From the NCBI GenBank assembly GCA_031278055.1, contig JAITLD010000014.1, forward strand, positions 1 to 19,506: a stretch of 19,506 nucleotides of DNA. Direction: 5' to 3'. This DNA comes from Rickettsiales bacterium (GTDB taxonomy: Bacteria > Pseudomonadota > Alphaproteobacteria > Rs-D84). The notes under the pieces were generated by a model that made no database searches, was not told the origin of the DNA, and worked only from the letters and a program-made list of their open reading frames with translations. A program made the translations under genes and the position numbers. Positions 3,874 through 12,473 of the stretch are shown here, in pieces. Numbering within the stretch: position 1 is the first letter of the stretch; every line of letters begins with the position of its first letter.

Positions 3874-4929
3874 TCATTTTAAGCTTGATATCAAGACTTC
3901 AAGCCGGTTTTTGTTTTCTATGTCATCCAATGCTATCGCCAAAGTATGCGCGGCCTGCAAATCGGAAAGCGCCGCCTCCATTTGTCCTATTTTCACGCGC
4001 AACGCACCGCTCTTTTCAAAGAAACCCATCGCCTGCCTGCTCATATTTTCGCGCGTTTTTTCATCCGGCGTCTTTTGAATCCTTTCAGATATAATCGTCA
4101 CAGCCGATGAATAATCCGCGATCGCGCTGTCATAGCCGCCCCTGTTGGTCCGCGCCTCGGCCCGACCGGTATAGTCGGTCCAATCCGGTTCCCCCATGTT
4201 CTTTGCTATCGCCATGGTGTAATCGTCGTCCGCCTCAGTCCAGTTTCGCAGCCACAGATTCACCTGCGCGCGTTTTGCGTAAATATCATGCGTCGAAATT
4301 TCACCGCCCTCCGGATCAGATTGCGCCAAGCTGGTCATGCTCATACGCGCGTTAATCGCCATATCCAAATCGCTTTTTGCCTCGCTCAATTTTTCAAGTT
4401 TTATATTCGCCAGCGCGCGATCGTAATATGCGGCGATGGATATCGGACTGATTCTGATAGCAGAGCTGAAGTCTGCAATGGCCGCCTCAAAGTTTCCGCC
4501 CGACATCAGGACTTCGCCCCTATAAATGTAATTCAGGGGTTCCCCCGGATTTCTTTCGACCGCAATCGTGAAATCATTCAACGCCCCGACAGCGTCGCCA
4601 TTCAGCAATTTATTCTTGCCGGATTCCCTGTATTCGATCGACGAATCCGGTCCCGCTTGTAGCGGCTCTTCTTGCAATGTCGGCTCTACTTCCGGAACGG
4701 TTTCCTGTTCCGAGATTGTTGTCGGCGCGTCAGCTTCAATAACCTGAACGTTATCAGGCGCCTTTCTGCCAAACCATGACAGCATATAACATGTCGTTCC
4801 GACAAATATCGCGATCGCTATCCAATATAGATAAACCAATACGTGCGATTTTTTCTTTTTATTTTCCTTCGGGTTGTCCGCAACCTCGGAAACGGAAACA
4901 TTCTTGGTGTTTATTTTTTTTGCTGGCAT
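3874..4929 (-). CDS. Inner-membrane protein with periplasmic TPR domain, unknown function
   Basis: 351 residues. A Lys-rich cytoplasmic amino terminus (about 1-29) leads into one transmembrane helix (about 30-52, LVYLYWIAIAIFVGTTCYML) and then an acidic Pro/Glu-rich linker (about 60-100). From about 105 to the end there are tetratricopeptide-like repeats, including NYIYRGEVLMSGGNFEAAIADFSSAI-type units and YDSAIADYSSAV. TPRs bind proteins; the partner is unknown. The start is set by a strong Shine-Dalgarno (AGGAG, 4938-4942 on the minus strand) before ATG 4929. An in-frame ATG 21 nt upstream would place that site inside the coding sequence. It has its own promoter and a leader of about 25 nt. 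That ribosome-binding region is an 11-nt perfect complement of the pyrimidine-rich sRNA at 12079-12267. Confidence 0.85.
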   Translation of the reverse strand: MPAKKINTKNVSVSEVADNPKENKKKKSHVLVYLYWIAIAIFVGTTCYMLSWFGRKAPDNVQVIEADAPTTISEQETVPEVEPTLQEEPLQAGPDSSIEYRESGKNKLLNGDAVGALNDFTIAVERNPGEPLNYIYRGEVLMSGGNFEAAIADFSSAIRISPISIAAYYDRALANIKLEKLSEAKSDLDMAINARMSMTSLAQSDPEGGEISTHDIYAKRAQVNLWLRNWTEADDDYTMAIAKNMGEPDWTDYTGRAEARTNRGGYDSAIADYSSAVTIISERIQKTPDEKTRENMSRQAMGFFEKSGALRVKIGQMEAALSDLQAAHTLAIALDDIENKNRLEVLISSLK

Positions 4930-4961
4930 AGTTCTCTCCTCTATCCCCAATTATGTTTTCA

Positions 4962-11966: not shown

Positions 11967-11995
11967 AGTATAACATAGGTTTTCTTGTTTGTCAA
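11967..11995 (-). promoter_or_regulatory. Promoter of rne
   Basis: On the minus strand, perfect TTGACA (11990-11995), a 17-bp spacer and TATACT (11967-11972). The predicted start is near 11960, giving a leader of about 177 nt. Confidence 0.8.
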
Positions 11996-12078
11996 AATAG
12001 AGACCAGATAATGATAGTAAATAGTATCGTGAATCAAGCGCGCGTCGTTAATGATTCCGGGTTCATGACGGCTGACTC

Positions 12079-12110
12079 AAAAAAAAACCGCGCTTTCGCG
12101 CGGTTTTTTT
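12079..12110 (-). terminator. Strong, symmetric terminator of the sRNA
   Basis: CCGCGC (12088-12093), loop TTTC and GCGCGG (12098-12103) are flanked by at least seven A residues on one side and seven T residues on the other. The structure is therefore a canonical intrinsic terminator on both strands. Only the minus strand has a transcription unit ending here. Confidence 0.9.
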
Positions 12111-12267
12111 CTGAGGAACGGCTTCACAAAAGGAAGGAAAGGAGAAAATAAAAAAACCGTTCCGCGATCTCGGACAGCACCCCCGCATTTCCGCGTTGTC
12201 CAAATCCAAATAATCAAGGGGGCTAGAGGAGAGAGAATGTAGGAGGGAGTCTAGGTTCCCCTTGATT
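12079..12267 (-). ncRNA. Candidate small RNA with pyrimidine-rich anti-Shine-Dalgarno-like loops
   Basis: A transcription unit of about 190 nt without a credible ORF, bounded by a near-consensus promoter (12274-12302) and a strong terminator (12079-12110). Hairpin 1 has a 10-bp stem (12258-12267 with 12212-12221), then a 5-bp CTAGA/TCTAG stem, closing on a 22-nt loop that is pyrimidine except for one ACA and includes CUCCCUCCU and CUCUCUCC. Hairpin 2 is closed by GGACA/UGUCC (12197-12201 with 12172-12176). Hairpin 3 has a 7-bp stem GGAACGG/CCGUUCC (12157-12163 with 12115-12121) and a 35-nt loop rich in U and C with CUCCUUUCCUUCC. Such C/U-rich loops occur in trans-acting bacterial sRNAs that pair with ribosome-binding sites, for example the CcsR/cuckoo RNAs of Rhodobacter. 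It is not recognisable as 6S, SRP, RNase P or tmRNA. The spacer 11996-12078 between it and the rne promoter holds nothing I can identify. Confidence 0.75.
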
Positions 12268-12273
12268 GCGTTA

Positions 12274-12302
12274 AATATAATACAGAAAAATATGTTTGTC
12301 AA
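12274..12302 (-). promoter_or_regulatory. Promoter of the small RNA
   Basis: On the minus strand, TTGACA (12297-12302), a 17-bp spacer and TATATT (12274-12279). The expected start is at 12267-12269, exactly where the first stem of hairpin 1 begins. Confidence 0.8.
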
Positions 12303-12341
12303 GTATATTGACGGGAAATGTTTTGGATTGGATTTTATATA

Positions 12342-12370
12342 TTGACAAATTATTATTTTAATATTATATA
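12342..12370 (+). promoter_or_regulatory. Promoter of the 12474 gene
   Basis: TTGACA (12342-12347), a 17-bp spacer and TATATA (12365-12370). The predicted start is near 12377, giving a leader of nearly 100 nt. It is divergent from the sRNA promoter about 40 bp away. Confidence 0.7.
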
Positions 12371-12473
12371 AGAAGTATTCTTGCAAGCGGTTGAATGATT
12401 TATTGAAGGGCCTGTCTTCTGTCAATTTTGTCGCAAAGGGGTAAAGTTTGTTTGTTGAAAATAAGGGTTAATT

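Follow-up and report, generated by a model that had tools for sequence, protein, structure and literature searches.

A predicted small RNA gene with two fixed pyrimidine loops in the alphaproteobacterial family Rs-D84 and its candidate target dnaA

Introduction

Several bacterial small RNAs (sRNAs) combine variable sequence with a strongly conserved unpaired region. GcvB, which is Hfq-dependent, has a long, nearly invariant single-stranded region that serves many mRNAs; CcsR is grouped with the cuckoo/ar14 RNAs, and Rfam contains an ar14 model. The subject of the present analysis is a predicted sRNA gene on the minus strand of a 19,506-nucleotide (nt) stretch of DNA (contig JAITLD010000014.1, assembly GCA_031278055.1; the whole stretch is denoted the window below) of a Rickettsiales bacterium from the order Rs-D84 of the Alphaproteobacteria, and the described systems closest to it are the cuckoo/ar14 RNAs and EcpR1. 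In the available excerpts of the respective sources, the cuckoo/ar14 RNAs (NfeR1, SmelA075) consist of several hairpins with an invariant anti-Shine-Dalgarno (anti-SD) loop motif on diverging stems, and NfeR1, which is termed Hfq-independent, silences ntrB at the translation start (PMC3927594, PMC10746234). EcpR1 of Sinorhizobium, as described in the accessible part of its report, is also Hfq-independent and acts through its loop 1, a fixed loop that pairs with dnaA (and gcrA), with the two dnaA sites overlapping the ribosome-binding site (RBS) and the start codon (PMC4414408). Phage sRNAs that act on host mRNAs for replication or division, namely PreS (dnaN) and DicF (ftsZ), are covered in the excerpted text of PMC12197685.

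The gene analyzed here presents two different C/U-rich loops, loop 1 (CUCCCUCCUACAUUCUCUCUCCUCU) and loop 2 (UUCUCCUUUCCUUCCUU), on stems that are replaced among relatives. Most probably, although with considerable reservation, it encodes a trans-acting, Hfq-independent sRNA that represses its targets via their SD regions. Under this scenario, each loop would pair with the SD region of its own mRNAs and thereby exclude 30S subunits; loop 2 would act chiefly on dnaA, so that the RNA would restrain the initiation of replication, whereas loop 1 would act on other mRNAs, those of a KefB-like antiporter and, in Enterousia and its near kin, of a small divergent helix-turn-helix (HTH) regulator.

Structure and conservation of the sRNA gene

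The predicted fold of the 189-nt RNA (-67.4 kcal/mol) was not equaled in stability by any of 200 shuffled sequences (Table 1). The analysis agrees with the original prediction, which was made from the sequence of the window alone, in the promoter, in the two stems named there (that of the third hairpin being 12157-12163/12115-12121), in the 22-nt apical C/U loop of the first hairpin (12249-12228, including CUCCCUCCU), in the second hairpin and in the strong terminator; the 35-nt loop that was attributed to the third hairpin is what remains after its 7-bp stem, but the fold extends this stem by four pairs, which reduces the loop to 27 nt (12152-12126). On the plus strand, too, the terminator may function, given that the RNA matches its own plus strand at 86% of the positions there. 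Although a 120-aa frame starting with TTG runs across the gene in the same direction (12063-12425), the spacing of the conserved blocks varies in relatives by lengths not divisible by three, so the absence of a credible open reading frame, also part of the original prediction, is upheld. Promoter-like sites are not in excess in this region (4, compared to a mean of 3.2 in shuffled sequences), so the promoter of the putative transcript is accepted not by virtue of its own frequency but because a like promoter, TTGACA...TATTATATT or TATTACATT, precedes the copies in relatives, as judged by eye. At Rfam gathering scores, the window yielded one tRNA and nothing else, and ten loci of relatives yielded only tRNAs; the best sub-threshold matches, of 29 up to E = 10, include the terminator half of the gene. 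The description of the gene as unrecognised thus agrees with the Rfam search.

Table 1. Coordinates of the predicted sRNA gene and its parts in the window, and of the loop-bearing hairpins in three viral contigs
Feature	Position	Strand	Support
Sigma-70-type promoter TTGACA-17-TATATT	12274..12302	-	11/12 consensus match; similar promoter before homologues
Predicted sRNA transcript, ~189 nt	12079..12267	-	fold z -4.33; loop 1 in 167/183 family genomes; predicted ends
Hairpin 1	12212..12267	-	outer stem 12258-12267/12212-12221, inner stem 12250-12254/12223-12227; pair counts of both helices, 38 sequences
28-nt block AGACUCCCUCCUACAUUCUCUCUCCUCU, loop 1 plus its three closing pairs	12225..12252	-	same in all 38 aligned sequences
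Middle hairpin	12166..12206	-	predicted fold; no counterpart among aligned relatives (alignment A1, by eye)
Hairpin 3, bearing loop 2	12113..12165	-	predicted fold; stem columns 136-144/199-212 of A1 covary
Loop 2 core UUUCUCCUUUCCUUCCUU	12130..12147	-	complementary to dnaA leaders in many relatives
Intrinsic terminator, near-palindromic	12079..12112	-	predicted fold; relatives have terminator stems of different sequence at the same place
Loop-bearing hairpins, viral contig L419	4544-4112	-	
Loop-bearing hairpin, viral contig L423	near 11650	-	
Loop-bearing hairpin, viral contig L420	7907-7931	+	

The distribution of the RNA was assessed with a 25-mer of loop 1, allowing up to three mismatches, in 201 genomes of the order. 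Loop 1 was detected in 167 of these, all from 12 of the 13 genera of the family (183 genomes), and in none of the 18 genomes outside it; the reversed pattern, used as a control, had no matches in the order. Among the genomes with a completeness of 90% or more and a contamination of 5% or less (126, of which 115 belong to the family), the respective counts are 112 of 115 and 0 of 11. Loop 1 is exact in all listed copies except for one with a single mismatch (G088:C21; here and below, G and L numbers are our designations of genomes and loci). This copy (L020, G088:C21:2701) is a lone loop-1 hairpin located directly before an open frame, and the same genome also has a normal copy. Loop 2, with up to two edits, follows loop 1 within 260 nt in 75 of the 76 distinct copies, three of which come from IMG/VR contigs, and is exact over 17 nt in 67 of the 76; the sole exception (L013) stops at a contig edge.

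Alignment A1 comprises 38 sequences from eight genera, after omission of L013, L019 (which has a long insertion), L020, L123, duplicates and further copies from genus g2. The 28-nt AGA-loop-UCU block, including the three closing pairs of loop 1, shows zero variation in A1, with the qualification that the copies were found by this very block, so that other loops would have been missed, even though the 25-mer search tolerated three mismatches. The stems behave differently: the covariation score was 0.508, compared to 0.237 in shuffled alignments and at most 0.204 when the structure was slid along the alignment (a control in which a structure derived from A1 itself is favored), and two-sided changes occurred at 24 of the 30 pairs (18.0 in shuffles), in 167 cells (47.7 in shuffles). 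Neither the covariation score nor the number of two-sided pairs was matched by any of 500 shuffles. The stems, whose covariation the original prediction had proposed to check, are therefore upheld by compensatory change while loop 1 stays fixed.

Outside the family, hairpins bearing loops of a related kind (UCCCUCCUUAUUUUCUCUCUCCUC and the like) were found in 11 of the 18 genomes of the order (G183, G184, G186, G187, G188, G189, G191, G194, G195, G196 and G200) with a loop pattern and model R1, which is based on alignment A2 (27 of the 38 A1 sequences). These were judged by eye from fold and loop; the R1 E-values range from 2.6e-5 (G195) to above 0.1, and several are beyond the reach of the model. 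The same searches found no related hairpin in G185, G190, G192, G193, G197, G198 and G199. Four homologues from family f2 (L398, L399, L401 and L403) seem, by eye, to have an extra 5' hairpin with a common loop around ACGACCCCUCAUU. Among 385 genomes drawn from the class, R1 gave matches at E <= 0.1 in 12: four in the family, one in the order (G199) and seven outside the order. The latter (E 0.008-0.09) are at chance level for per-genome E-values, and the six that were inspected are unlike the RNA, so this search revealed no convincing homologue outside the order.

Complementarity of loop 2 to dnaA leaders

Two of the R1 matches proved to be the antisense of an RBS that is complementary to loop 2. 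At least 18 of the 44 genomes searched have the complement of loop 2 at the RBS of dnaA: among 20 places outside the sRNA that were inspected, 16 are dnaA leaders and four belong to other genes, and two more dnaA leaders were found in L145 and L155. These dnaA leaders are of the type AGGGAAGGAAAGGAGAAAC-AUG. The DnaA_N domain was confirmed by Pfam for the gene behind one leader and for G036, G153, G158 and G169; the remaining identities were assigned by reading. In some of the dnaA leaders, e.g., L212-L219, an upstream CUCUUUU may, by eye, pair with the leader's own AAAGGAG and mask the SD sequence in cis.

A search for dnaA by PF11638, which is free of selection for complementarity, was positive in 25 of 30 genomes, some of them already known from the complement search. 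The pairing test was performed on 21 of the 22 family members in this set (G164, in which the start is unclear, was dropped, and G189, G194 and G196, from outside the family, were left out). With the fixed 18-nt core of loop 2, the mean duplex energy was -20.93 kcal/mol, compared to -14.97 for 500 shuffled cores, the best of which reached -18.90; hence none of the 500 equaled the real loop. Taken singly, 14 of the 21 genomes had at most 25 of 500 shuffles as good as the real core. When the dnaA leaders were ranked against 404 sampled genes of G003 (its dnaA included), 15 of 20 genomes placed within the best 6; the lower ranks were those of G181 (8th), G168 (14th), G000, the window genome (32nd), G167 (66th) and G164 (351st). 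Within samples of their own genes, dnaA ranked first for loop 2 in three genomes from two genera (of 420 genes in G003, 320 in G153 and 397 in G181), and in G003 and G153 its energy was better than that of any site found by 20 shuffled loops. The second-best candidate in the G003 sample is a SIMPL/DUF541 gene (L257 14523-15266). On the strength of these predicted duplexes, control of dnaA by the RNA is likely in several genera. In the window genome, dnaA is a weak target at best, and for this genus the result pertains to the RNA itself.

Candidate targets of loop 1 and general target controls

The best conserved candidate for loop 1, weaker than dnaA for loop 2, appears to be the KefB-like antiporter gene (PF00999 plus TrkA_N), which ranks 1, 1 and 4 in the G003, G153 and G181 samples, respectively, and in G153 could pair with loop 1 over 14 nt. 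In 23 genomes, the 3' half of loop 1, chosen afterwards, was matched by 1 of 300 shuffles, the 5' half by 42 and loop 2 by 98; singly, the gene is among the best 3.1% of sampled genes in 14 of 25 genomes, and in only 3 of 25 were at most 10 of 200 shuffled loops as good. The kefB-like gene of the window genome (L391, G000:C49:6101-7789) has one in-frame TAG stop. The second candidate, the divergent HTH gene, was tested at 54 loci with 40 distinct leaders, mostly from one genus: 2 of 300 shuffles were as good as loop 1 (1 for its 3' half, 14 for its 5' half, and 81 for loop 2), and certain leaders could pair with loop 1 over 13 nt.

When 15 window genes were scanned as targets, the best value was -20.0, for a GTG inside rne, and a TPR gene (3874-4950) reached -17.5; two rne leaders that were tested had no special fit to the loops. 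Loop 1 was also considered as a code word at gene starts (pattern RGGRGRGRGRRTG, one mismatch) and was rejected, many of the matches being G-runs or the sRNA itself. This pattern outnumbered its reversed control in all 12 genomes, from 34 against 33 (G000) to 11 against 1 (G003), and several of 20 regions from the search contain gene starts of envelope-like proteins. In L312, L313 and L318, the starts of genes for secreted or outer-membrane-like proteins have GGAGAGA, complementary to loop 1, before the ATG. The octamer GGAGAGAG, also tried, is commoner than all its permutations in G181, with a count of 6, whereas it does not lead them in G003 (1) and G153 (0).

Hairpins with the same loops in viral contigs

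Among 2.9 million IMG/VR contigs, the 25-mer of loop 1 is present in five and the 20-mer in six; the 17-mer occurs in the same six. In three of these (L418, L421 and L422), the copy is of the host type, includes loop 2 and lies near prophage-like genes (for head and tail families, L421 alone was tested, and L418 and L422 were assigned by the likeness of their frames); in L421 and L422 the divergent HTH gene is present as well. In the other three (L419, L420 and L423), loop 1 is placed on unrelated stems, with 22-25 nt kept exactly. An additional contig from the viral pattern search (L424) does not form the hairpin and was discarded, and the f2-type loop pattern had no matches in viral contigs. 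The 17-mer of loop 2 occurs in 29 IMG/VR contigs, but all of these except L419, L421 and L422 (26 contigs) have neither loop 1 nearby nor a strong hairpin with the 17-mer open, so that this 17-mer alone proves little.

The L419 contig (231 kb) has PHROG assignments for 7 of 10 proteins from three sampled stretches, including a DNA polymerase, a DnaB-like helicase, a primase, an exonuclease and a tail fibre, and for none of 7 proteins near the hairpins. Loop 2 is exact (18/18) and lies unpaired within a hairpin; TTGATA-17-TATAAT precedes loop 2 by 109 nt, and a hairpin with a variant of loop 1 comes next; an exact loop-1 hairpin, with TTGACA-17-TATAAT 116 nt ahead and, by eye, a terminator after it, lies 407 nt past loop 2. 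L423 (36 kb) encodes tail protein and Holliday-junction resolvase families; here, 22 nt of loop 1 sit in a terminator-like hairpin 75 nt after TTGACA-17-TATAAT. Upstream of it, a further terminator-like hairpin has the loop CUCCUUUACCUUCCUUU, which by eye resembles loop 2, with one base more, and was not returned by the 18-mer search (up to three edits); that search gave chance-level sites elsewhere in L420 and L423. L420 (31 kb), with Mu Gam-like and Erf-like families, has loop 1 alone, and no promoter was found within 250 nt of it. Of 300 random 120-nt windows drawn from these viral loci, 10-15 contain a promoter as good as these. The terminase family PF03237 was detected in none of the three viral records.

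Judging from the shared loop only, the phages represented by L419, L420 and L423 may infect Rs-D84 bacteria. Because the viral loops are in the same sense as those of the host, a phage RNA of this type would act on the same mRNAs, as a mimic; were the loops bound by a protein, the viral hairpins would be decoys. Mimicry appears preferable because loop 2 fits dnaA and the L419 contig has replication proteins of its own.

Genomic context of the gene

The window genome consists of 92 contigs (0.67 Mb, 83% completeness). Among the best 80 loci, the closest relatives of the window RNase E are those of 'Rickettsiales bacterium' metagenome-assembled genomes, followed by alphaproteobacterial ones including Candidatus Enterousia, at 70-80% identity. 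According to the available portion of PMC12306168, Enterousia belongs to the order and family Rs-D84 in GTDB and has a reduced genome. The kinship table, with genus g2 taken to be Enterousia, places the window genome in the same family.

The sRNA gene adjoins rne in the window and in L032 and L003, both from one genome (G166); in the remaining loci among the 92 examined, its neighbors are genes other than rne. In 54 loci, from Enterousia and genera g3 and g4, it is divergent from the small HTH gene, the product of which has 81 aa in both copies inspected. A conserved RNA in shifting surroundings argues for action in trans. In the window, a second promoter-like site (TTGACA-17-TATACT, 11967-11995, minus strand) is located between the sRNA terminator and rne.

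Competing explanations

The original prediction, that of a translational regulator that pairs with RBSs through anti-SD-like loops, stands as far as the two C/U loops and the predicted RBS pairing are concerned; it does not extend to the dnaA of the window genome, which shows no special pairing, nor to generic anti-SD activity, given that the loops differ and have different best candidates. Repression by such pairing could do without a chaperone: Hfq (PF17209) was detected in none of 27 genomes of the order, whereas the positive controls (E. coli, B. subtilis and Caulobacter) were detected, and long exact pairing is compatible with this absence.

Several observations weigh against repression through SD regions. 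The invariance over 25 nt exceeds what short mRNA seeds usually need. The fit to dnaA fails singly in 7 of the 21 genomes, namely in the window genome, where the pairing is unremarkable (275 of 500 shuffles as good), and in G173 (67), G162 (30), G168 (69), G181 (312), G177 (207) and G167 (150); for G181, most shuffled loops have a site that equals dnaA in strength. Six genomes (G012, G043, G085, G131, G160 and G165) have a fitting dnaA leader and no sRNA in the assembly. With loop 1 taken whole, its fit to kefB lacks significance: across 23 genomes, 35 of 300 shuffles did as well. Averaged over every sampled gene start, the pairing of the real loops is roughly on a par with that of 20 shuffled ones. 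In an ortholog test, shuffles attained the top real score in 15, 0 and 0 of 40 runs with loop 1, and with loop 2 in 3, 0 and 5 of 40.

The first alternative is that the loops are sites for a protein, either an Hfq-replacing chaperone or other RNA-binding protein or a ribosomal protein such as S1, in which case the RNA would serve as a sponge or as a scaffold, with the phage hairpins as decoys for this protein. The excess of 25-28 unchanged nt over the needs of a base-pairing seed, the invariance of the three closing pairs, the exact retention of 22-25 nt on foreign stems in the viral loop-1 hairpins and the failure to find Hfq in the 27 genomes are all in line with this possibility. However, it leaves unexplained both the dependence of the dnaA fit on the order of bases in loop 2 (0 of 500 shuffles, 21 genomes) and the first rank of dnaA in three genomes, and it calls for two different sites for one protein; on balance, we regard it as unlikely, roughly a one-in-several prospect.

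An RNA that lowers the translation of many purine-rich leaders, with no specific targets, would account for the abundance of CCUCC-like stretches in both loops, for the fairly good pairing of shuffled loops with the best candidates, and for the 13 genes below -18 kcal/mol that loop 2 has in the G003 sample, more than any of 20 shuffles. Yet the order of the loop matters for dnaA, the two loops favor different genes, their pairing across all gene starts is about equal to that of shuffles, and 25 fixed nt would not be expected of a generic role, all of which makes this explanation improbable.

That the RNA is a diverged member of the cuckoo/ar14 family is quite improbable: the layout of fixed anti-SD loops on variable stems followed by a terminator is the same, as are the class and the lack of a detected Hfq gene, but the CCUCCUCCC motif is absent, the two loops are unlike rather than identical, ar14 is not among the 29 Rfam matches up to E = 10, and no convincing homologue was found outside the order among the 385 genomes from the class. 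Finally, a cis-acting leader or attenuator of rne, a reading to which the same-strand location upstream of rne in the window and in G166 and the original view of the gene as an rne-upstream element lend themselves, can be practically dismissed, given the sRNA's own terminator some 300 nt before the rne start, the further promoter-like site at 11995-11967, the unlinked homologues with different neighbors in the other genera examined and the unexceptional fit of the loops to the two rne leaders tested.

Taking repression through SD regions as the preferred reading, a broader scenario can be put forward only tentatively, at somewhat less than even chances: that a family, and perhaps an order, of Hfq-less, genome-reduced alphaproteobacteria controls the initiation of replication and other genes through one two-loop anti-SD sRNA, which would imply a role in the cell cycle, and that unrelated phages, one of them with a 231-kb contig and its own replication genes, encode RNAs that present these loops on different stems so as to press this host switch, e.g., to stop the translation of dnaA.

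Comparison with known systems

Searches of open-access papers listed no report of this RNA. An unrecognised sRNA gene with a loop that hardly ever changes is present in 112 of the 115 good genomes of a gut lineage; it is a candidate for controlling DnaA post-transcriptionally, independently of Hfq and outside the Rhizobiales, and the viral contigs that bear the working letters of the host sRNA on their own stems make the function of the loops directly testable.

With GcvB, the RNA shares a long, near-invariant unpaired region, but GcvB is Hfq-dependent and unrelated in sequence. As for phage sRNAs, the available text on PreS and DicF makes no mention of their carrying loops of a host sRNA (PMC12197685). 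The likeness to CcsR and the cuckoo RNAs noted in the original prediction holds for variable stems around fixed loops, demonstrated here by covariation. It does not hold for the motif: cuckoo/ar14 loops redundantly bear CCUCCUCCC, which, by reading, is absent from the window RNA and from the A1 loops, and instead of an identical motif in each loop there are two unlike loops, of 25 and ~17 nt, with different predicted targets. EcpR1, also an alphaproteobacterial sRNA with a fixed loop, is a parallel for the complementarity to the dnaA RBS, which in the present case is predicted; its loop UCCGCCGCAUCU is, in the accessible part of the source, GC-rich and comes from Rhizobiales (PMC4414408), and is absent from the window RNA. 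Judged by its sequence and conservation, the gene described here is real and defines a new family, a member of neither the cuckoo/ar14 nor the EcpR1 group, that would work in the manner of both.
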